Assembly: GCA_001898035.1 (NCBI GenBank)
Contig: MKRX01000006.1
Coordinates: 576,150 to 640,149 of the forward strand
Direction of reading: 5' to 3'
Length of the DNA: 64,000 nucleotides
Source: Armatimonadetes bacterium 55-13
GTDB lineage: Bacteria; Armatimonadota; Fimbriimonadia; Fimbriimonadales; Fimbriimonadaceae
The notes beneath the pieces were generated by a model. The model was not told the origin of the DNA, did not search any database, and was given only the letters and a program-made list of their open reading frames with translations. Positions 10,075 through 27,936 of this stretch are shown here, in pieces. Each line of letters starts with the position of its first letter. The stretch's first letter is position 1. Both the position numbers and the translations under genes were made by a program.

Positions 10075-13000
10075 ATGAATTTTCGGATTAGAATCCTTGC
10101 CTTTGCCCTTGCTGCGATGTCGATCTGGACAAGCGTGTCGGCTCTTGCCGATAATTCCATGGGGAGCAAGGTCAATGTGTTCGTTCCCCCCCGGCGCTGG
10201 GCGCTGGTCATTGGGGCCAGTCGCTATCAATCGATTGGCGCTCTCAAATATGCCTCTGCTGACGCGAAGCTCTTTGCTAACACCCTGAAAGAGACATTCC
10301 AGTATCAGCCCGAGACCGTTGAACTGCTGACCGACGACCCCGACTCTGGCAAAACCCCGGATGCCAAGTCCATCACGGCGGCTCTGGATCGTCAAATCGC
10401 CGACAAGCGCCTCGATAAGGGTGATCTCTTCATCTTCTACTTCGCGGGACATGGAGTAGGCACGCCCGAAGGAGACATGCTTCTGCCCACGGACGCAACC
10501 ACGCAGAACGCGGCGAAAGTCGGATTGCCGGTCAAAGCGGTTTTGGATCGGTTTGTCAAGGCGGGCCTCAAGAACGTCGTCGTGATTGCCGACGCCTGTC
10601 GGGCGGGTGAAAAGAACACGTTTGGTGCGGAACTCCAAGCGTTGGGAAAGCAAGCCAATATCGCGGTTCTACTGGGATGTTCGCCCGGCGCCCGCTCTTA
10701 TGAATATCCGCAGCTTGGTCACGGCGTGTTCACGAGCTTTCTTGCCAAGGCACTCAAGAGCAAAACCCTTCGCAGTCCCTTGACCGGAGCCCTTTGGACC
10801 TCAAAAGTCGCGGAGGAGGTCCAATCTAAGGTCCTCGATTACACGGCGAGAGACTATCCAGAGAGCCCCCAAAAACCGAGCATTCTCACAGAGAAATCTC
10901 AAGATGTCCTTCTGGGCGCATTTGAATCGAGCGTTGACGATCCTGCCGCCGTCCGTGCGATTCAAAAAGAGTCCGAAGGGTTGTCTCAGGACAAGAAGTG
11001 TGATGCGTTAACGCTCTTTGCGTCGGACCTTTACTCTTCGCACAAAGTCGAAGAGTCGATCGAAGTCTTCAAGGTGCTCGACCAACTGGATGCGCTTACC
11101 CCGATGAATCGCTACCTGTATTCGCTCGCACTTCGCGAACGCGGACGCTATGCGGAAGCTGTGAGGGAATACGACAAGATTCAGAAATCCGATGCCCAGC
11201 CTCTGATCCGTGAATTGGTGACTGCATTTAATCCATCGCGCCTCATCGCTCCAGACGTTCGATTGCAAGCGGCGGAAAAAGCCTGGGACATGGAACCGGC
11301 TGAGTGGGTGGGATTTGTGGTTTGGGCTTCTTGCCAAATGTATGGGTCCAAGGCAGACGCGAACGCGATACTGGAGAAGCTTTTGGCCAGCGACGTGCTG
11401 TCACCGCGCGCCCGGAAGTTCTTCGAAGGCATCCAAGCCGCAAATGCCGGAAACTGGCGGGCCGCCCTGGCCTCTTACGACTCCTGCGAGAAAATTGAGG
11501 GTGATACTCCGGGCGTTGACCTTATTGATGCTTATCGCTTTATCGGGCTCACCTTTTTGGGTGACACCGATGCCGTAGTGGCGTTGCTAAGGAAAAACGG
11601 AGAGGATCCCCAAAACGGAACGAAGAGCCTGTTGACGTTGGCTGAATACTACAAAGAGCAGGGGCAAGCCGATCTCATGATGGCCACCGTGAAGGCTGCG
11701 TTGGCGAATAACCCGGAACCTGATGACCTCTTGTGGGCACTTCGCATCGTAGCTCTTCGCTATCCCGAAATCATGCCAGTGTTGAAAGAAAAAGCGGCGC
11801 TCTATCCGTTTGCGTGGAAGGCAGCGGTGGCCAAGCTATGGGCCAATGCCGATCAAGGTTCCGGCTCCGTGCAAGCCTCCATTGACGAGGCCCTGAAATT
11901 CTGCGACGACGAGTTTACGGTCATGTTCGAATATCTCCGATTGCTCGACGAGCAGTTGGATGAGATGTTGGCAAAGGGACTCATCGCCAAAGATTTCTAC
12001 CTGCAAACTCAAGTGGCCTATTCATCGATCATGGCGGAGAATGTCGATGAGTTTGGCTACGATCCATACGCTTGGCTCCTGCTGAACAAGTTCGGTTTGA
12101 TGTCTGAGAAATACGAACAGGTGTTGGCTCTTTACAATCTCAAACTGGGAGCGTTGGCGGATCGAGGAAGCCTAGAACCCATGCTTCGCGCGCCTTACTT
12201 CTATGCCGCCGTTTGCATGGGAGATGAAAAGAGAACCGAGCAGTTATGGAAGCTGCAAGGATTTCACCCGGCGGATATTCGAGACTGCGCTCTGGTTCGG
12301 TCTATCTCTTTTGCCTTGCGCGGCCAAATCGCCGAAGCAAAAGCTGCCATGCCCGCTCAACTGCCATCGCCAGTGTTCAGACCAGCTCTCAAAGCCCTGC
12401 GTGCGTATATTGACGTAAGGGAAGGTAAGCCGGCCGACCTGGAGAGCTTGGTTGCGGGAGCGCAAAAGGAACCCGCCGCTCTCCAAATCCTTGCCCTTGC
12501 CTACGTTGCCAAAAAGGACTGGAAGCACGCCGAGCCTCTGCTGAAGAAGGTGGCATTCGAACGACAACTCATCTTCACGTTCGTCCAAGCCAGGACGGTG
12601 AAAACGCTCTTTGACCGATATGTCTCCACCAAGCGGATTAAAGAAGCCAATGAGATTGCGTACACCGTCATGACCTCGGCCTACGGAAATCCTCTGTATC
12701 GGGAGATTGGCTTCGATGGCCCACCCGATGTGAAGAAGTTTGTGGGCACGATCCAAATGGATACCGGAGCCTTCGATCTCTTGCCTGATATTGTCAGAGG
12801 GCATATTAAGCTCACTTTCACATCCGCAGGAGCCGTCTCCGGCTCAGGAGCCATGGGCGACTATCCGTTGAGTGTGACGGGAAAGATCGATGGCTACGGC
12901 AACCTGCAGGCCACGCTAAAGGCCCACGATCGAGTCTGGCGAATGACTGGAAAAGTGGCGCCGCCGCACCTTTATAAGGAGTTGCCTCAATTTCAGTCCC

Positions 13001-13104
13001 TCGGCCAGATATTCCTTCTGTTGGAGCCGAACGGCCAGGCTCTGTTCTATATGTGCCAACCCTCTAAACAAAAGACCGCGCCTCCAAAGAAGCGCGGTCT
13101 CTGA
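10075..13104 (+). CDS. Secreted caspase-like (C14) protease with long helical-repeat region
   Basis: 1009 residues with a signal peptide at 1-25 (ILAFALAAMSIWTSVSALA). Residues about 40-270 are a C14 caspase/metacaspase domain. RWALVIGASRY opens the fold, the His dyad residue is in FYFAGHG (His126), and the nucleophile is in IADACRAG (Cys175). The remaining 700 residues are TPR-like alpha-helical repeats with a small beta-rich domain at the end (SGSGAMGDYPLSVTGKIDGYG). Family members cleave after Arg/Lys or Asp. The helical region probably binds a partner or substrate outside the cytoplasm. It converges on an M48 protease that also carries helical repeats. The substrate is unknown. Confidence 0.87.
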   Translation: MNFRIRILAFALAAMSIWTSVSALADNSMGSKVNVFVPPRRWALVIGASRYQSIGALKYASADAKLFANTLKETFQYQPETVELLTDDPDSGKTPDAKSITAALDRQIADKRLDKGDLFIFYFAGHGVGTPEGDMLLPTDATTQNAAKVGLPVKAVLDRFVKAGLKNVVVIADACRAGEKNTFGAELQALGKQANIAVLLGCSPGARSYEYPQLGHGVFTSFLAKALKSKTLRSPLTGALWTSKVAEEVQSKVLDYTARDYPESPQKPSILTEKSQDVLLGAFESSVDDPAAVRAIQKESEGLSQDKKCDALTLFASDLYSSHKVEESIEVFKVLDQLDALTPMNRYLYSLALRERGRYAEAVREYDKIQKSDAQPLIRELVTAFNPSRLIAPDVRLQAAEKAWDMEPAEWVGFVVWASCQMYGSKADANAILEKLLASDVLSPRARKFFEGIQAANAGNWRAALASYDSCEKIEGDTPGVDLIDAYRFIGLTFLGDTDAVVALLRKNGEDPQNGTKSLLTLAEYYKEQGQADLMMATVKAALANNPEPDDLLWALRIVALRYPEIMPVLKEKAALYPFAWKAAVAKLWANADQGSGSVQASIDEALKFCDDEFTVMFEYLRLLDEQLDEMLAKGLIAKDFYLQTQVAYSSIMAENVDEFGYDPYAWLLLNKFGLMSEKYEQVLALYNLKLGALADRGSLEPMLRAPYFYAAVCMGDEKRTEQLWKLQGFHPADIRDCALVRSISFALRGQIAEAKAAMPAQLPSPVFRPALKALRAYIDVREGKPADLESLVAGAQKEPAALQILALAYVAKKDWKHAEPLLKKVAFERQLIFTFVQARTVKTLFDRYVSTKRIKEANEIAYTVMTSAYGNPLYREIGFDGPPDVKKFVGTIQMDTGAFDLLPDIVRGHIKLTFTSAGAVSGSGAMGDYPLSVTGKIDGYGNLQATLKAHDRVWRMTGKVAPPHLYKELPQFQSLGQIFLLLEPNGQALFYMCQPSKQKTAPPKKRGL
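13073..13100 (-). terminator. Hairpin terminator embedded in the end of the caspase-like gene
   Basis: Arms AGACCGCGC (13073-13081) and GCGCGGTCT (13092-13100) are perfect with a 10-nt loop. Read on the minus strand the stem is followed by TTTTGTTT. It would stop transcripts of the M48 gene that ends at 13111, yet it lies inside the last codons of the convergent caspase-like gene (end 13104). Confidence 0.7.
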
Positions 13105-19405: not shown

Positions 19406-20650
19406 TTACTTCTTCCGAGGCGCCCAGATTCGATACTGACCGCTGGCGTGGAGCAATCCGAACATGTAGAGCATCCCATCGTAGTAACGCCATTGCCCGC
19501 TGGGAATAGGAGCGTTCCACAGGGCGTTGACGAAGTCGGGGGCGACTTTGTCCGTGGCGGCAAGACTTGCCGCGGCATTCATGGCGACGTGGCCCGTTGC
19601 TTGATAGTCAACCACGGGGTTGCCATCCACCGTATAGCCGGAAACGTATTTGGGTTTTTGGTTTGCGAAGAATTTGAGAAGACGATTCGTCTGCTCAACC
19701 TGCCACGGATCTTCCCCAAACCAAGCGTAATCCATAGCAATATTGCCCGCAACGCGGAAAGCATCCGATTGGAAATTATCCGACTTGTTGGTGCTGGGCC
19801 ATGGGGGCTTGGTTGGTTTGCCATCGAAAGTGCTGTAGTCAGGATAAAGCCCCGTTACAGGGTGAGCCGCCTTTTTGAAGAACTTGCGACTGGTGGCGGC
19901 GGCATCTTTCCAAAACTCTCGATCTTCCTTTGCCCACCTAGCCCAGAGTTCATAGAAGGCGGGAAGATGGTAGGAAGCATCGGTGAAAGTTGCGGCCTGA
20001 CCGTTCGGAACAAAGACAACCTGCTTCTCCTTGGAATCGAACATATTCATCGCGTTATCCACGATGCCTCCGTTGTCTTTTTCTTTTCGTAGCATGACGT
20101 GGAGAATATGATCGGCCTCGGCCCGGTAGTTTTTATAACCACTGGTTGATCCCCAACGGCCATCGGCGAAGAACAGGGCCATGGCGAAGTATTCCTCGCC
20201 ATCAGAGGCAGGAAACTTCGTGCGTTGCTTCCCGGAGTCCTCGCAAGACCATGCGAAGTAGCCTTTCCAGGGCCCCTCTTGGTGCTGCATATGGGTTTTG
20301 GCCCATTTCCAAAGGCGGTCGAACTCCGCTTGGCGGCCGTACTGCACCGCGATCATCATGCCGTAGGACATTCCCTCTGAGCGGACATCGCCATTGCCGA
20401 TGTCTTTGATGTATGCCATATCCTGGCCCACCGGATAATAAACGCGCTGGTTTTCGGTCCCTTCAAAGAGCTGTTTCCAGGCGGCGTTGAGCTTATCGCA
20501 AATCTCTTGATCCGACTTACCCTGCTCCCGGAAGAGGTTTCGGTATTGCCCAGTAGCGAACGACCGGGGACTCTTTCCCGCCGGGGCGGCTTTCGAAAGA
20601 GGCGGTTGAAAGAGGTCTTGAATGACAAGCACAGCAAGAAGGGTGAGCAT
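19406..20650 (-). CDS. GH8 family glycosidase, probable reducing-end xylose-releasing exo-oligoxylanase
   Basis: 414 residues. GH8 (alpha/alpha)6-barrel landmarks: GNGDVRSEGMSYGMMIAVQ with the proposed proton donor Glu92, then FAWSCEDSG, PASDGEEYFAMAL and a later DAFRVAGNIAMDYAWF containing the expected catalytic-base region. These match the exo-oligoxylanase (Rex) branch of GH8, which removes xylose from the reducing end of xylooligosaccharides. A short N-terminal hydrophobic segment is present (MLTLLAVLVIQ), so export is possible. The gene begins 4 bp after the GH52 xylosidase and is surely co-transcribed with it. Together the two would degrade xylooligosaccharides from both ends. Confidence 0.9.
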   Translation of the reverse strand: MLTLLAVLVIQDLFQPPLSKAAPAGKSPRSFATGQYRNLFREQGKSDQEICDKLNAAWKQLFEGTENQRVYYPVGQDMAYIKDIGNGDVRSEGMSYGMMIAVQYGRQAEFDRLWKWAKTHMQHQEGPWKGYFAWSCEDSGKQRTKFPASDGEEYFAMALFFADGRWGSTSGYKNYRAEADHILHVMLRKEKDNGGIVDNAMNMFDSKEKQVVFVPNGQAATFTDASYHLPAFYELWARWAKEDREFWKDAAATSRKFFKKAAHPVTGLYPDYSTFDGKPTKPPWPSTNKSDNFQSDAFRVAGNIAMDYAWFGEDPWQVEQTNRLLKFFANQKPKYVSGYTVDGNPVVDYQATGHVAMNAAASLAATDKVAPDFVNALWNAPIPSGQWRYYDGMLYMFGLLHASGQYRIWAPRKK

Positions 20651-20654
20651 GGTT

Positions 20655-22784
20655 CTAGGCGTTCAACTCGGTCATGGCTCCCGCAAGGAGCTTGGTTAGG
20701 TCTTGGAGGGGATCGACGGAGTGGGACTTCCACAAGGCTGCGGTCACTCCTCGTGGGTAGTAACGACTTCCGACTGCCTTCCCTTCTAACATCTGATCGC
20801 TCCACGCATAGTAAGCATTTTCAGGATCGAGAAGCCACTGAACGTGAGCTTTGTCGGCGTGCACGTCAGGAGCCTCTTTCAAGATGCGCTCGGCGACGAA
20901 CTGGCAAAGATAGATCTTACTAAGCCAAGAGTTGCGACTCGTCGAGCTGAGCCGCCAGCCTCCGTCTCCGAATCGGCAGATTCCCGAATCCATCACGGCC
21001 TTGAAGTGTCGGGTCAAAGTTCGGTTGAGTTCATGGAACGGTTCGGTCTCGATGCCAATCACGAATGGATAAACAAGGGCTTCAATCGCCGGGATGATTC
21101 TTGCATCGACTCCCTCACCGATGACGGCGGGTAGGAAGGCATCTTGGTCGGCAGAATTCGTGATGGTCTCTGACGCACGATGGGCCTGGACTCTGGCGCG
21201 ATTGGCGGCTTCTGGGTCTGAGAGATTATCAAACAAGTAGCCCAAGACGAGATAGGCGGCCCACGCCTTTACGCCTAGGTACAGATTGTTTCGGGCTTGA
21301 CCGAGACTGGCGTCTAAGCTGTCGTAAGTGGTGATTTCGGCCCCGCCCAGACAACGGTCGGCATCCAGACCGATAAGACCATTTCTCTTAGCCGGTTCGG
21401 GATGATCGCGATTCTCAAGGCTCTGGAGGCAGGCGAGGAAGGTATTGCGATGGGATTCAGCCCAATTCTGGTCACCCGTGCGTTTGAGGTAGAGACCAGC
21501 GGTAAGAACCCAATTCATCAACTCCTCTCCGCTCATGTAGGAAAAGCAGCCGTGGAGCCCAGCTTGCTCGTATCCTGAATACCCAGGCCGGGAAAAGTTG
21601 TTTGCAACCCCCATGTCATGAGTGAACGCAATACCTCCGGGCTGTGAATTGGGATTACCGGGAAATCGAACGCGATCTTGATAAGAGTATCTCTCTACAT
21701 AGAGGTCCAAGACGTTTCGGACTGTCCAAGGACTGAGTCCGAGTTCGAAAAACGCTTGGTCCACCGTAAGGTCGAAGGTGTTCATCATTCGATACTCGCC
21801 CTCATGGACAACCCATAGCGGGCGGCCATCTTCCCTCTCCAAAAGTTGGGTCGAGCCAAAGTAGCTGCGAATGGCATGAGCGAGCATGAAATGGCGTTCG
21901 GGCGTCATATCTTGAGCAAGAGCTCGATCAAAGGACTCGGCGAGAGCGATGGTCTTGTCGGCGTGAGTCAGCGCATGGATCAAGACCTCCTCGACCTGGT
22001 CAAACCATCGACGGTAGAGGTATTGCGTGGGAATGCCGGAGGTGGCAACTCCATCTCGGAAGAAGCCGATCGCGAATTGAAACGTGCGTTTCTCTCCGGG
22101 CTCGACGGTGGCAACGAGAAGGCCCAGGCTTCCCAGCATAAAGCTGAGGTTTTCGTGAAGGTGCGGAGATAGAATCGATTCCGGTTGCCAAGCCAAGCCA
22201 GCGTAAACATCAGAATCCATGGTGGCGATGGCGGTCGATGTTCCCTGACCCACCCCGATAAGGCCCAACTGATCTAGAATCCGCATTCCGGCCGACCTCT
22301 CCGAGCCCTTATAACCCAAAAAGGCACGACGAGGAAGTTTGCCCGATCGGTTATCGATGGTGAGTTCAGCGAGGACTGCCGGGGTGAGAGCACCCTTAGC
22401 ATCTTCTTGCTCCGGGTCCGGCACCGAACGAACGGGAGAAATCAAGCGAAAGGTGAGATCTCCGGCTCGCCATTCGTCGATAGAAGCGCTCATTCGGCGT
22501 TCGATTTCTTCTTCAGCGAATGGGAGAATGGCTTGAGCGACGGCTAGTTCGGACAAGTGTTCGGAATCGAAGTCATGGGCTGCGTTCTCTGCTCCACCGT
22601 AGAACGGCAAAGCATGGAACTGCCCCGATTCCTCCCTATCTTCGATGCCAATGTATACGCTTTCGTTGGCGGGGCCGTCCAATTCCAAGCCTAAGCCGCC
22701 CTTCGGTCCGCGAAATCCCAGGGTGAAACTGGCGAATGCCCCTACCGGAGAATGGTGGGCGTTGTAGAAAATGGAGCTCTTCAT
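20655..22784 (-). CDS. GH52 beta-xylosidase
   Basis: 709 residues from the ATG at 22784 (an in-frame TTG lies 9 nt earlier). The N-terminus FYNAHHSPVGAFASFTLGF and the blocks FMLAHAIRSY, EGEYRMMNTFDLTVDQ, TYDSLDASLGQARNNLYL and STSRNSWLSKIYLCQFVA are nearly diagnostic of GH52. By homology to the Geobacillus enzyme the nucleophile is Glu331 (HEGEY, in the longer-start numbering). The acid/base is the Asp in ITTYDSLD. GH52 enzymes remove xylose from the non-reducing end of xylooligosaccharides. No signal peptide is seen, so it is likely cytoplasmic. It lies between two small lipoprotein genes and GH8 in a probable lacI-headed operon. Confidence 0.95.
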   Translation of the reverse strand: MKSSIFYNAHHSPVGAFASFTLGFRGPKGGLGLELDGPANESVYIGIEDREESGQFHALPFYGGAENAAHDFDSEHLSELAVAQAILPFAEEEIERRMSASIDEWRAGDLTFRLISPVRSVPDPEQEDAKGALTPAVLAELTIDNRSGKLPRRAFLGYKGSERSAGMRILDQLGLIGVGQGTSTAIATMDSDVYAGLAWQPESILSPHLHENLSFMLGSLGLLVATVEPGEKRTFQFAIGFFRDGVATSGIPTQYLYRRWFDQVEEVLIHALTHADKTIALAESFDRALAQDMTPERHFMLAHAIRSYFGSTQLLEREDGRPLWVVHEGEYRMMNTFDLTVDQAFFELGLSPWTVRNVLDLYVERYSYQDRVRFPGNPNSQPGGIAFTHDMGVANNFSRPGYSGYEQAGLHGCFSYMSGEELMNWVLTAGLYLKRTGDQNWAESHRNTFLACLQSLENRDHPEPAKRNGLIGLDADRCLGGAEITTYDSLDASLGQARNNLYLGVKAWAAYLVLGYLFDNLSDPEAANRARVQAHRASETITNSADQDAFLPAVIGEGVDARIIPAIEALVYPFVIGIETEPFHELNRTLTRHFKAVMDSGICRFGDGGWRLSSTSRNSWLSKIYLCQFVAERILKEAPDVHADKAHVQWLLDPENAYYAWSDQMLEGKAVGSRYYPRGVTAALWKSHSVDPLQDLTKLLAGAMTELNA

Positions 22785-22857
22785 CTTTCTCAAATCAAGT
22801 GGGCAATAGCCCGACAGTCCCTTCTTGAGGGCAGATCAAGGACCGCTCCGAGGCGCA

Positions 22858-23286
22858 CTACTTGGAGCGCTTATATTCGACGTCTAACTTGGACGCCTTC
22901 TGTTTCAGATGAAGGATGTCACCTTTGAGTTCGGCCGCGTAGCGCGATACATAGGATTCCGGCCCTTCAACCTTGAACAATAAGTTCTTGTCGGAAATCT
23001 TCCATTCGCCAGCTGCCTTCGAAGTTCCTCGCCCCACGGCGACGTTCGTCATGTTGGCTTTGCCATCCTTCGAGAGTTCGAGCGTAGACGTTTTGTCCGC
23101 GGTGATCCAAATTCCCGCATAAGAGGGATCGACTTTGCCTTCGAACGCGATTTGGGGGGCAACCGGTTCCGGAGAGTTGGCTTCTGGTTCCCCGCAGCCA
23201 ACGATGATCCAAGCGCTCAGGATAGAGAGGGCGGCAGATGCGATCTTTCGACCTCCACCGCCCCACATGCGAGAACACCCAATCAT
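22858..23286 (-). CDS. Small secreted lipoprotein
   Basis: 142 residues. The ATG at 23286 overlaps the preceding stop as ATGA, which favours this start by translational coupling; a second ATG at 23268 is possible. The signal peptide ends in the lipobox IVGC near residue 31. The mature part has the pattern SYAGIWITADKTSTLELSKDGKA..AAGEWKISDKNL. This resembles small beta-rich lipoproteins in which a reference cost or effect is written as growth with TSTLEL-like strands, and has a distant feel of the lipoproteins at 39734 and 40217. The function is unknown. It is followed by GH52 after about 70 bp. Confidence 0.75.
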   Translation of the reverse strand: MIGCSRMWGGGGRKIASAALSILSAWIIVGCGEPEANSPEPVAPQIAFEGKVDPSYAGIWITADKTSTLELSKDGKANMTNVAVGRGTSKAAGEWKISDKNLLFKVEGPESYVSRYAAELKGDILHLKQKASKLDVEYKRSK

Positions 23287-23490: not shown

Positions 23491-24324
23491 TTAGTTGACG
23501 TAGGCTGCGCAAATTCCACCCGGGGTGAACATCCATGACCAGTCTTCGCCATTGATGGAGAAACCCGTGTAGATGTCTCGGCACCAGTTGAGAGCACCCT
23601 TCTTCATGGTCTTGGCGTGGCCGTCTGCCCAGGCGATATTCGCGGACTCAGTGTAACGATAGCGAGGCATCGCACAACTTGGCCCGGGTCCTGTGGGCGT
23701 CCAGTTACAACCGGCAAGATCGTTATCCCACTGAGCGCCGGAGGTCGGACCGGTCCAAGCGGGTGGGTATTGAGCGCCGCCGTGCCACCACCAGTGGTAC
23801 TCGATGAATCCTGATGACGAGTTTGACCAGTCCGGATTCACACCCACGGTCGTGATGATCATCGTTCCCGCTGGTTTTTCAAGCGAAGTTTGGGAGCGTG
23901 AAGGCTCCAGAGAAGCCGGATTCGCGTTGTGCCAGGGCAGCAGCGATACCGGGCCTGCGTAGCCATATTTGGAATTGCTGGGTTCAGTTGGGCTCCGCCA
24001 AAGATCGCCAACGGCTAGTTTCTGATTATTGGAGTAGGTTCCGTCCGATCGTCCGCCGCTCTTCACGTAGGGCTGAGTCGTTTCGCGCCACGTTACCCCG
24101 TTATCACCATAGTTGGGGTCAGGGTAGAAGCCGCGCGGGTAGAAGTCGTCGTAGTCCGACGAGTACATGATAAGGGCGGTGCCGAGCTGTTTGATATTCG
24201 ACAGGTCGGCGGATTTCTTTGCGGCTGCCTTGGCTTGGGCAAACACGGGGAACAGGATAGCGGCCAATATCGCGATGATCGCGATGACCACCAAAAGTTC
24301 AATGAGGGTAAATGCTTTTTTCAT
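23491..24324 (-). CDS. DUF1559-type pseudopilin (prepilin N-methylation signal)
   Basis: 278 residues. The start ATG 24324 gives [20 protein letters not shown], the class III (type IV pilin/T2SS) signal: cleavage falls before Phe with Glu at mature position 5. The upstream ATG at 24339 overlaps the lacI stop and only adds polar residues. The globular part ends with [15 protein letters not shown], the C-terminal motif of the large Planctomycetes/Armatimonadota pseudopilin family. These proteins are exported and processed by PilD-like peptidases; their function is largely unknown. It is the first gene after lacI and is separated by 1 bp from a lipoprotein gene. Confidence 0.9.
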
Positions 24325-24335
24325 AAGACAACTCT

Positions 24336-25361
24336 TCACTGAGTGCGTGGAGGCGCTGTGGATTCTCGGACATCGAGGCCACAGTCATAGATAGATGAGA
24401 CCGTGGGCGACGGGGGCGTACCCTCCGCCACTTCACGGATGAGAGAAAGCAAATGGAGCGTCGCCGCGTAGGCCATGCTCTCAACCGGCTGATTGACTGA
24501 TGTGAGTCGGGGCTTAGTACTCTCACAAAAACTTGAAGAGTCAAAACCGACGACCGACAAATCGTGCGGCACCGAGATGCCATAACGTTCACAAGCCTTT
24601 AGAAGGCGTCCGGCAAGGGTATCGCTGAAGCAGACCAGAGCCGTATGGGGTGGATTTGATCCTGCGTAATCTTGGACCTCCAAACACTGCTCATCCCAAA
24701 CGAGCGTATCCGGCGCCAACCCCTCTGCTAAAGCAGCGGTCACCAGCGCGTCACGACGAGCCCGTCCTTCCATCGCCTTTTCGTTGATCGGTTCGATCAC
24801 GTAAGCGATGCGACGATGCCCGAGAGATTTCAGATGCTTCACGACATGGCGCATAGCGCCATCGTTATCCGCACAAAACGATGGGATACCGGGGAGGAAG
24901 CCAGGAGGGGCGTGCATCGTCACCACCGGAACGCTGGAGGAACGGATTGCTTCGATCGAAGCGTCGTCATAATCGGGACGACACCACAAAACGCCATCAA
25001 ATCGGCCGTCTGAAATCGATCCTGCGTCACTCCCGAGTATTAGTTTTGGGCAAAGTGCGAGGGCGCAATCGGCAGGAAAAAGGGCTGCCATGACGCCATT
25101 AAGAAGCTGGGGATAATAGGGTCGCTCTTCTCCCAGTCGATCGAAGTGCTGGAAAACGACTCCCACCATATTTGTTCGCTGGCTGCGGAACGAGCGGGCA
25201 AGGTGGTTTGGGCGATAGCGTAGTTCCCGGGCTATCTTCCGGATGTGTTCGGCTTTCTCCGGGCTGACCTTTACGTTGCTCCCCGTTCCGTTGAGAACGG
25301 CGGAAACAGCCATCGCAGAGACACCGGCGGCTTCGGCAATGTCGCGAATCGTTGTTTTCAT
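24336..25361 (-). CDS. LacI family transcriptional regulator
   Basis: 341 residues. The N-terminal helix-turn-helix is [24 protein letters not shown] (residues 3-26), followed by a hinge helix with RPNHLARSF and a periplasmic-binding-protein-like effector domain (about 60-335). It heads a minus-strand run of pseudopilin, two lipoproteins, GH52 and GH8, so a xylooligosaccharide or xylose-derived effector is likely (inference from context). Two near-identical candidate operators lie upstream; one overlaps its own transcription start, suggesting autoregulation and control of the run. Confidence 0.94.
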
Positions 25362-25362
25362 A

Positions 25363-25378
25363 GATTTACAGTTAAATC
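25363..25378. promoter_or_regulatory. Candidate LacI operator O1
   Basis: GATTTACAGTTAAATC: 6-bp inverted arms GATTTA/TAAATC around a 4-bp centre. It lies 1 bp upstream of the lacI start codon and just downstream of the predicted -10 box, so binding would block initiation. A second copy (15 of 16 bases identical, same orientation) is at 25489-25504. Confidence 0.72.
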
Positions 25379-25386
25379 AACGACAC

Positions 25387-25416
25387 ACTATACAATCACT
25401 TTTTCAACTTTATCAA
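25387..25416 (-). promoter_or_regulatory. Predicted promoter of the lacI operon
   Basis: On the minus strand TTGATA (25416-25411), an 18-bp spacer and TATAGT (25392-25387) resemble a sigma-70-type promoter. O1 starts 8 bp downstream of the -10 box. Confidence 0.5.
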
Positions 25417-25488
25417 AGAAATATCTGAGACCCCGCATTGTTAACTAATCGTTCAGTCACTTTCAGATTCAAACTCTGAACACGGAGC

Positions 25489-25504
25489 GATTTACAGTTA
25501 AATT
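25489..25504. promoter_or_regulatory. Candidate LacI operator O2
   Basis: GATTTACAGTTAAATT, differing from O1 only at the last base. It lies upstream of the predicted lacI promoter and 23 bp beyond the end of the esterase pseudogene; no other promoter is near. The O1 to O2 centre distance is 126 bp, about 12 helical turns, which suits repression by DNA looping. Confidence 0.65.
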
Positions 25505-25526: not shown

Positions 25527-26638
25527 TCAGTCGAGATATCTTGAGGCAAATTCGATGAAAGTCGGCCAATTGGGGCCGTTCGAATGTCCCCCATGGTGCT
25601 GACTGAAGGCCAGATCTCCGCCGATCAACGGCGTCCCCTCGGGAGGCATCTCGGTGGTGCCCAATCCCTTATTTCCAAGTAATTCATAGACTGGCGAGGC
25701 CAAAGAAGTCGCCATAAAGGTTCCTCGCGAATCGATCCAAATGCCCTCGACGTTCGGTGAGCCCACCCCGACAAACACCGGACGAGGGGCGCATAACGCC
25801 ACCAATCCACGTGCGTCCACCGGAAAATCCTTCGGCGTCAACGGGCCTGCGTACTTCACGTAGTTGCCCGCCATCCAGCCCACCTTTTTGGCGTTCACCC
25901 TTCTATCGATCTGAAGGTAGTCCAGCACTCGACCCGCGCCCCAAGCCCACGCCTTCAGCGCTCCCCATTGATCGGGCTTTCGGGGTTGTCCCTTGTTGAC
26001 CAGGCCGATAATCCCCTTGGTCAGACCGCCGCCGTTATCCGCTTGAACGCTGGTCGGGTCCAAGACGGTATAGCCCCCTTCGCGAGCACTTGATCCTGCC
26101 AAGTCGGCCCCTGGCTATTGCGCGGCCTCCGAAATCCGGGGAATCCGAACTCGATGATCACCGGAACCGGCCCCTTCGCCTTCTCCGGCAGCGTCAGTGA
26201 GCACTTGATCTCCACGGTAACCGCCGGATAACTGGCGTTGTCCACGCGCCCAATTAACCGGCGCGTGTTCCCCTCCTCCCCCTCCACTGTCCACCTCACC
26301 TTGGGCAGCTTCGAGGGCGGTCGACCATAAATCTCTCGATCCATGTCGTCCAAAATCTCCTTCCTCCGCCGATCCCATTCCTTTCGGGATTTCACCGGCT
26401 TGCCATCCCGGAACTTCAGCGCGTCCGGAATATCCGGATAGGGATTTGCCTTCGCCCCGTCGGTGTTCGCAAAGTTCGGCGAATCAGGATTCATCCCATC
26501 CACCCCCGGACGGAGGGCATCGATTCCCAACTCCTTCAGCAGACGGGCATGGTCTTGCGCAGCGGTGAGATTAACGGGTGGTGGAACCTGCTTTACAGGG
26601 TCCATGTTAGCTGCAATAATGAGGAGACAGGGCAACAT
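25527..26638 (-). pseudogene. CE15 glucuronoyl esterase pseudogene (frameshift plus internal deletion)
   Basis: The first frame (26638-26021) carries the N-terminus of a CE15-like 4-O-methyl-glucuronoyl methylesterase with PVPVIIEFGFPGFRRP and TWQDQVLAKG. It then shifts at a run of five C on the + strand (26074-26078). One extra base would restore LAKGGYTVLDPTSVQADNG, which continues in the next frame through GLTKGIIGLVNKG and RVLDYLQIDRRVNAKKVG. At 25877/25878 the sequence jumps from AKKVG straight to WMAGNYVKYAGPLTPKD. Relatives have about 50 residues here, including the GHSR-type nucleophile serine. The gene therefore cannot make an active esterase. It would have removed glucuronate-lignin cross-links from xylan, fitting the neighbouring xylanolytic genes. 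Confidence 0.83.
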
Positions 26639-26679
26639 TTAACCGTATATTAGCTCTGTCAGTCGAAGAGGACAACCCT

Positions 26680-27936
26680 ATGTACACCCTCGCCCTTTGG
26701 TCGCTTTCGCTTCTCTCCTCCCCCCTCTATTTCGATCCGCCTACCGTCGTCCCCTATCATGCCAACGGAATCTATGAACTCAAAGAAACGGTCGGGTGGA
26801 ACGTCTCTGGCCAGGGCGGAAAGTACAAGTACACCGTCAAACTCAACAACGCCGTCCCGATCTCCAATGGCGAAATTGACCTTGCCAACGGTCCCGTCAA
26901 AATCGAAGCCAAGCCCACCGAGCCCGCCATGCTGTTCATGCAGCTCACCCCGACCGAGGGCGGAAAACCCCTAGACTTCGGCGCCGCCGTTTCCCCCACC
27001 AAGATTCCCCCCGCCAAGCCAAAACCGAAAGACTTCGACGCTTTCTGGAAGTCGAAAATCGCCGACCTCCACAAGATCCCCATGAATCCCACGCTCACGC
27101 CAGGAGTTAGCGGGAGGGAAGGTATCGACTACGGCACGATCCGTATGGATCACGTCAACGGAACCTACGTCTACGGCCAATACGCCCGCCCTAACAAGCC
27201 CGGCAAGTACCCCGCCATCCTCCAACTCCAATGGGCCAGCCCCCCTTATCCCCTCGATAAATCCTGGATCATGGGCTACGCGTCCATGGGATTCATCGCC
27301 CTCAACATCGAGCCCCACAACGTCTTGCCCACCGAGCCCAAAAGCTACTATGACGCCCTCCCCGCCGCACTGAAGAACTACGGTGCCATCAACATGGATG
27401 ATCGGGATAAGAGCTACTTCGTCGAGATGTATCTTCGCGACTACCGCGCTGTTGACTACCTTGCCAGCCTCCCTGATTGGGATGGCAAGACCCTCGTCGT
27501 GATCGGCACCAGCATGGGTGGTCAGCAAAGCCTCGCCGTCGCCGGTCTCCACCCCAAAATCACCCACCTCATCGTCAACGTCCCCGCCGGTTGCGACCTG
27601 AACGCCGGACTCCATAACCGGCAAAACGGCTACCCCTTCTTCCCGTCCAACAATCCCAAGGTGATGGAAACCGCGCAGTACGTAGACTGCGTTAACTTCG
27701 CCTCCAACATCAAAGCCACCAGCCTCGTCGCCATGGGATTCGTCGACACGGTATCTCCGCCTACCGGAATCTGGGCTGCTTATAATTTGATTAGGGGACC
27801 TAAAGAAGCCGCTGCGATGTTCGATTCCCCGCATAACCACCTCGCGACCCCCGAACAGCAACGCCCCTACACCGAGCGATCCGCCGCCTGGCTACAAGCC
27901 CTCGCCAAAGGAGAACCCGCTCCCGTCCGCAAATAG
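26680..27936 (+). CDS. CE7 acetyl xylan esterase (AXE1-like), secreted
   Basis: 418 residues. The signal peptide is 1-17 (MYTLALWSLSLLSSPLY). Residues 20-115 are a beta-rich N-terminal domain, then a CE7/AXE1 alpha/beta hydrolase. The nucleophile is Ser in GTSMGGQQSL (about residue 274), the acid is Asp in GFVDTVSPP, and the base is His in SPHNHL. The ribosome site GAAGAGGA precedes the ATG. CE7 enzymes deacetylate xylan and xylooligosaccharides. It is divergent from the CE15 pseudogene with only 41 bp between, and its 3' end nearly touches the convergent topoisomerase gene. Confidence 0.9.
   Translation: MYTLALWSLSLLSSPLYFDPPTVVPYHANGIYELKETVGWNVSGQGGKYKYTVKLNNAVPISNGEIDLANGPVKIEAKPTEPAMLFMQLTPTEGGKPLDFGAAVSPTKIPPAKPKPKDFDAFWKSKIADLHKIPMNPTLTPGVSGREGIDYGTIRMDHVNGTYVYGQYARPNKPGKYPAILQLQWASPPYPLDKSWIMGYASMGFIALNIEPHNVLPTEPKSYYDALPAALKNYGAINMDDRDKSYFVEMYLRDYRAVDYLASLPDWDGKTLVVIGTSMGGQQSLAVAGLHPKITHLIVNVPAGCDLNAGLHNRQNGYPFFPSNNPKVMETAQYVDCVNFASNIKATSLVAMGFVDTVSPPTGIWAAYNLIRGPKEAAAMFDSPHNHLATPEQQRPYTERSAAWLQALAKGEPAPVRK

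Follow-up and report, generated by a model that had tools for sequence, protein, structure and literature searches.

A LacI-family regulator and its probable operators in a local xylan gene cluster of Armatimonadetes bacterium 55-13

A short palindromic sequence is repeated 126 bp apart upstream of a lacI-type gene in Armatimonadetes bacterium 55-13. This arrangement raises the question of whether the two copies, here termed O1 and O2, are operators of the regulator encoded next to them, which genes would be controlled in this way and whether the layout serves DNA looping as had been proposed in an initial annotation of the locus. We analyzed the surrounding stretch of 64,000 nucleotides (the window, to which all coordinates in Table 1 refer) along with the complete set of contigs and related genomes. 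On comparative sequence evidence, the LacI-family regulator encoded alongside almost certainly binds to both repeats. We assign a probability of roughly 0.88 to the reading that O1, O2 and a third site, O3, are operators through which this protein runs a small local xylan regulon.

Table 1. Features around lacI in the window, ordered by position
Feature	Position	Strand	Basis or remarks
GH8	19406-20650	-	Pfam; solved Rex8A-type enzymes, E 1e-107 to 1e-112
GH52 beta-xylosidase	20655-22793	-	Pfam; solved beta-xylosidases, E about 1e-237
Small conserved ORF	22858-23280	-	Between DUF1559 and GH52; homologues in the same place in L090 and L077
Prepilin-like DUF1559 protein	23491-24339	-	Pfam N_methyl above cut-off, DUF1559 below its cut-off
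LacI-family regulator, 341 aa	24336-25361	-	Pfam, alignment, AlphaFold2 model
O1, putative operator of the LacI-family regulator	25363-25378	-	GATTTACAGTTAAATC
Predicted sigma-70-like lacI promoter	25387-25416	-	Consensus scan, 10/12 matches
O2, putative second operator	25489-25504	-	GATTTACAGTTAAATT; 126 bp upstream of O1
CE15 glucuronoyl esterase pseudogene	25527-26638	-	Frameshift and internal deletion
O3, putative third operator	26636-26651	.	CATTTAACCGTATATT; matrix score 18.8
AXE1 acetyl xylan esterase-like protein	26680-27936	+	Pfam AXE1 2.5e-33; divergent from CE15 pseudogene

The regulator and the sites upstream of its gene

The lacI product exhibits the domain combination of the LacI/GalR family, i.e. 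an N-terminal LacI helix-turn-helix domain (Pfam, 1.2e-12) and a periplasmic-binding-protein-like sensor domain (Peripla_BP_3, 1.2e-27), and matches LacI-family structures in the PDB. In an alignment with 13 homologues, the protein ends shortly after the conserved core segment LDVRESTAP. The AlphaFold2 model (pLDDT 84.7) places the last strand at residues 328-330 and contains no helix after it, with the chain terminating 11 residues past this last core strand. Model and alignment end therefore both indicate that the regulator is devoid of a LacI-type C-terminal tetramerisation helix. About 26 LacI-like matches are present in the genome, among them a paralogue (G000:C10:135955-136992, L079) that is 62% identical to the regulator, carries CATATATCGATAAATG over its start codon and is followed by a DUF1559 gene. 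Given this number of matches and the similar operator of the paralogue, another paralogue could also bind, and cross-talk of L079 with the operators in the window is possible.

The sequence GATTTACAGTTAAAT is present in two copies in the same orientation, starting at 25363 and 25489, just as the initial annotation had reported, and O1 and O2 agree in 15 of 16 letters. Both are palindromic. O1 is a perfect 6-4-6 palindrome (GATTTA-CAGT-TAAATC) and, at 16 bp, conforms to the even palindromes of 16-22 bp (here GATTTA-N4-TAAATC) recognized by LacI-family proteins. The central CG pair, typical but not universal in such operators, is absent, with the centre of O1 and O2 reading A-G; the operator centre is also variable among homologues. 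The identity between the two sites stops at the operator edges and the flanks differ.

O1 lies a single base from the ATG of lacI (25361) and covers approximately positions +3 to +18 of the predicted transcript. The predicted promoter comprises a -35 box TTGATA (25416-25411), an 18-nt spacer and a -10 box TATAGT (25392-25387), with transcription starting near 25380. This agrees with the previous description, in which O1 separates the -10 box from the start codon and O2 lies upstream of the promoter. In the window, O2 is flanked by the lacI promoter on one side and by the 3' end of the CE15 pseudogene on the other. A simple scan revealed no terminator between CE15 and lacI. The spacing is likewise correct, as 126 bp correspond to 12.0 turns at 10.5 bp per turn.

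A whole-genome search for the motif had been recommended in the initial annotation, with a common repeat at unrelated loci as the result that would speak against operators. When the 15-mer was run against the genome (4,525,422 bp in 27 contigs) with at most one mismatch, O1 and O2 were the only sites, both at the lacI promoter, and the motif is thus no common repeat; the reversed control pattern yielded no match in the same genome. A looser palindrome search (ATTTANNNNTAAAT, one mismatch) resulted in 48 sites compared to 39 in the control and was too unspecific for defining a regulon. Near-matches at other places in the genome were inspected in fifteen stretches. Most of these contain unrelated genes, and we discounted the near-matches as sites that arose by chance or belong to paralogues. 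One near-match precedes a gene for a solute-binding protein (L094).

Conservation of the motif and linkage to xylan genes

In most close homologues, a GATWTA-N4-TAWATC site either coincides with the start codon of lacI or immediately precedes it. Examples close to the start codon are AATTTAACCGTAAATT in G072 (LacI 74% identical), AATTTAACCGTAAATC in G067 (70%), GATTTAACATTAAATC in G029 (57%) and GATTTACCCATAAATC in an uncultured Fimbriimonas (L033), while more distant LacI homologues feature GATATA-type sites. The palindrome footprint is therefore kept upstream of lacI homologues from other species and genera, and an operator at the regulator's own promoter is conserved in the manner expected for autoregulation. 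Upstream of two lacI homologues (L069 and L085), operators occur in pairs about 23-24 bp apart, which is near the 22-bp spacing linked to cooperative binding (PMC4052901).

We built a matrix from 16 homologue sites, none of them from the genome under study; a scan of the genome contigs added one LacI homologue. In the 64-kb window, O1 scores 22.9, O2 21.0 and a third site, O3, reaches the value given in Table 1, followed by the next best site at 10.3. None of 60 simulated 64-kb windows reached a score of 17. O3 had not appeared among the repeats listed previously and is not part of the matrix training set. It overlaps the start codon of the CE15 pseudogene (read leftward), lies 28 bp before AXE1 (read rightward) and is letter-identical to the AXE1 operator of the relative G067. 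The group pattern ATTTAACYGTAWAT, allowing one mismatch, matches exactly three sites in the genome: O1, O2 and O3.

The genes around lacI point at xylan degradation. The start of the DUF1559 gene overlaps the lacI stop, and the two genes are probably co-transcribed; a DUF1559 homologue also adjoins lacI in several relatives. The small ORF that follows has no assigned Pfam family. The GH8 protein is close to reducing-end xylose-releasing exo-oligoxylanases, and ten of the examined loci have a GH52 gene beside lacI or in its vicinity. In G072 the GH52 gene beside lacI (L080:2103-2767) consists of two overlapping fragments and may thus be broken there. On the other side of lacI, two overlapping ORFs in the window match different parts of CE15 structures. 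The frameshift is located near 26021-26102, and the pseudogene has also lost the part that aligns with VGIEGVSRYGKAAL in an intact homologue. Intact CE15 copies are present in relatives, and the broken gene points to a past rearrangement.

In relatives the motif precedes several genes with a role in xylan breakdown. In G067, lacI and AXE1 (66% identical to the protein from the window) are divergent neighbours with operators 136 bp apart. CE15 genes located elsewhere in G067 and G072 carry the motif just before their start, and it is also found before a divergent arabinofuranosidase gene in G063, G070 and G074 and before an MFS transporter gene in G065. G072 contains a further strong site, GATTTACAGGTAAATC (L113:1500, score 23.4), between GH31 and GH26 genes. 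Operators before, or linkage of lacI to, genes for xylan enzymes (GH52, GH8, AXE1, CE15 and arabinofuranosidase) are thus a recurring feature in several genomes. The presence of the motif before xylan genes in relatives and the lacI-GH52 linkage make a local xylan regulon with autorepression a well-supported prediction. Together with the phylogenetic footprint, they also lend strong support to the earlier proposal that the regulator itself and xylan genes are under common control. No operator is situated directly before GH52 or GH8 in the window, and their control would therefore depend on read-through from the lacI promoter.

From these findings we infer the following model, which extends to binding and repression, the effector, the transcription unit and a role for O2. 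In the sugar-free state the regulator, probably a dimer, would occupy O1 at the predicted transcript start and thereby block its own gene together with the downstream genes for DUF1559, GH52 beta-xylosidase and GH8 oligoxylanase, while binding to O3 would repress the esterase genes. Release of the regulator would be brought about by a sugar from xylan, probably a xylo-oligosaccharide or xylose. O2 would be either an auxiliary operator of the lacI promoter or the relict of an earlier divergent promoter, and it may raise the occupancy of O1 by looping or simply through a higher local concentration.

The role of O2 and alternative explanations

O2 is best called a putative auxiliary or relict operator. 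A relict could have arisen from the operator of a divergent gene when CE15 came between lacI and AXE1. In line with this, lacI and AXE1 of G067 are divergent with operators 136 bp apart, the intervening CE15 gene is broken in the window, and divergent layouts are common in relatives. A relict should decay, however, whereas O2 shows no damage and differs from O1 in a single letter amid dissimilar flanks, which speaks for selection. Furthermore, the AXE1 operator of G067 is identical to O3 and not to O2. We consider a relict origin somewhat unlikely.

Looping is a stronger form of the operator reading and compatible with it. In such a loop, two dimers or a tetramer would connect O1 and O2, which share one side of the helix, and the promoter would be trapped in between, following the example of lac or gal. 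The whole number of turns between the sites and the position of the promoter between them fit this idea, and the spacings in G067 (136 bp) and G069 (157 bp) are also close to whole turns. In addition, GalR loops over a similar distance of 113 bp without a LacI-type tail (PMC4693257; PMC3877293), so that a loop between O1 and O2 is possible, though nothing here demands it. On the other hand, the regulator is devoid of the tetramerisation helix on which LacI-type looping relies, and the closest homologue, G072, has O1 only and no O2. In the seven relatives with a second site, this is located at distances of 136, 157, 151, 163, 71, 228 and 129 bp. Taking the window into account, spacings range from 71 to 228 bp over eight loci without a common helical phase (Rayleigh p about 0.8), and a single in-phase pair has a substantial probability of arising by chance. 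The second site adjoins a divergent gene in five of the seven two-site relatives (G067, G070, G063, G065 and G061). G029 and G069 resemble the window, with an upstream gene in the same direction as lacI and a solitary second site. Of the looping layout proposed in the initial annotation, the in-phase spacing of 126 bp thus holds, while the missing helix, the lack of phasing and the divergent second sites in relatives speak against it. Looping between O1 and O2 is possible but not supported by the related genomes, and we judge it rather improbable.

It is very improbable that the palindrome at the start codon acts in the RNA as a hairpin hiding the start codon. The beginning of the transcript in the window can adopt a structure in which the palindrome pairs (-6.6 kcal/mol, z -1.8), but transcripts of the paralogue and of G067 do not form a palindrome hairpin and we rejected this explanation on these grounds. 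Moreover, O2 and O3 are located outside the lacI leader and the motif tracks the recognition helix of the regulator (see below). Least probable of all, and close to negligible, is the idea that the repeat arose by chance or is mobile and has nothing to do with the regulator: short two-copy repeats can arise by chance, but here both copies reside at the lacI promoter, the identity is confined to the operator and the motif is conserved at homologous loci in other genera.

Recognition helix and comparison with known systems

Operators of the GATWTA type co-occur with a methionine at position 17 of the regulator, which, according to the helix-turn-helix alignment, is the equivalent of Gln18 in LacI and the second position of the recognition helix. 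Of the 35 homologues with Met17, 25 carry the motif no more than 120 bp from the start, compared with none of the 46 that have another residue there; a duplicate fragment of the window's gene is left out here (26 of 36 with it). Sixteen of the sites served for training the matrix, and the independent part of the association thus amounts to about 9 of 19 versus 0 of 46, in counts that ignore kinship. Three Met proteins with near-identical upstream DNA (L005, L064 and L066) are without a site. In L005 another gene ends just upstream, indicating that lacI is probably a distal operon gene without an operator of its own. A literature search on LacI recognition-helix position 18 yielded nothing relevant. 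With this association, operators of many uncharacterized LacI-family proteins in these genomes could be predicted in a simple way. Four homologues (L035, L072, L008 and L038) carry Ala or Thr in place of Met and have GATWAA-type palindromes (e.g. GATTAAACCGTTAATC) about 200-330 bp upstream. These sites, perhaps at operon heads, possibly constitute a second operator class.

The type of regulation proposed here is ordinary biology and already known from the LacI family, and the locus makes up a concrete, testable xylan regulon with three predicted operators. Among the LacI-family regulators studied earlier, 72% are autoregulated, the operators are even palindromes, more than one site occurs in about 20% of operons and the central CG is missing for 49 of 1,303 regulators (PMC4052901). 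Local regulators from that study share with the one described here an even palindromic 16-bp operator, autoregulation, a small local carbohydrate regulon and two sites before the regulator gene. They differ in that the half-site here is GATWTA with a centre of ACTG or ACCG instead of CG and in that O1 abuts the start codon, whereas their operators are located 30-140 bp upstream. As in the lac system of E. coli (LacI with O1, O2 and O3), the main operator lies just past the predicted transcription start, more operators are found nearby and the spacing is in phase; unlike LacI, the regulator lacks the C-terminal tetramerisation helix and looping is only a candidate. The E. coli gal system is similar in that GalR has no LacI-type tail and its operators OE and OI, 113 bp apart (PMC4693257), also flank the promoter at a distance of about 11-12 turns. 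In contrast to gal, relatives do not preserve the helical phase of the second site.

In the library searched, no paper dealt with a LacI-type regulon in the Fimbriimonas group of Armatimonadota. It is conceivable, though doubtful, that the bacterial family of the window (relatives of Fimbriimonas) harbors a distinct LacI subgroup combining methionine at the Gln18 position, the GATWTA half-site with a free centre, a main operator on the start codon and, in the species studied here, a loop formed by a tail-less regulator. The window also encodes a 1009-aa protein (10075-13104, plus strand) with a caspase-like domain (Peptidase_C14) and TPR-like repeats.
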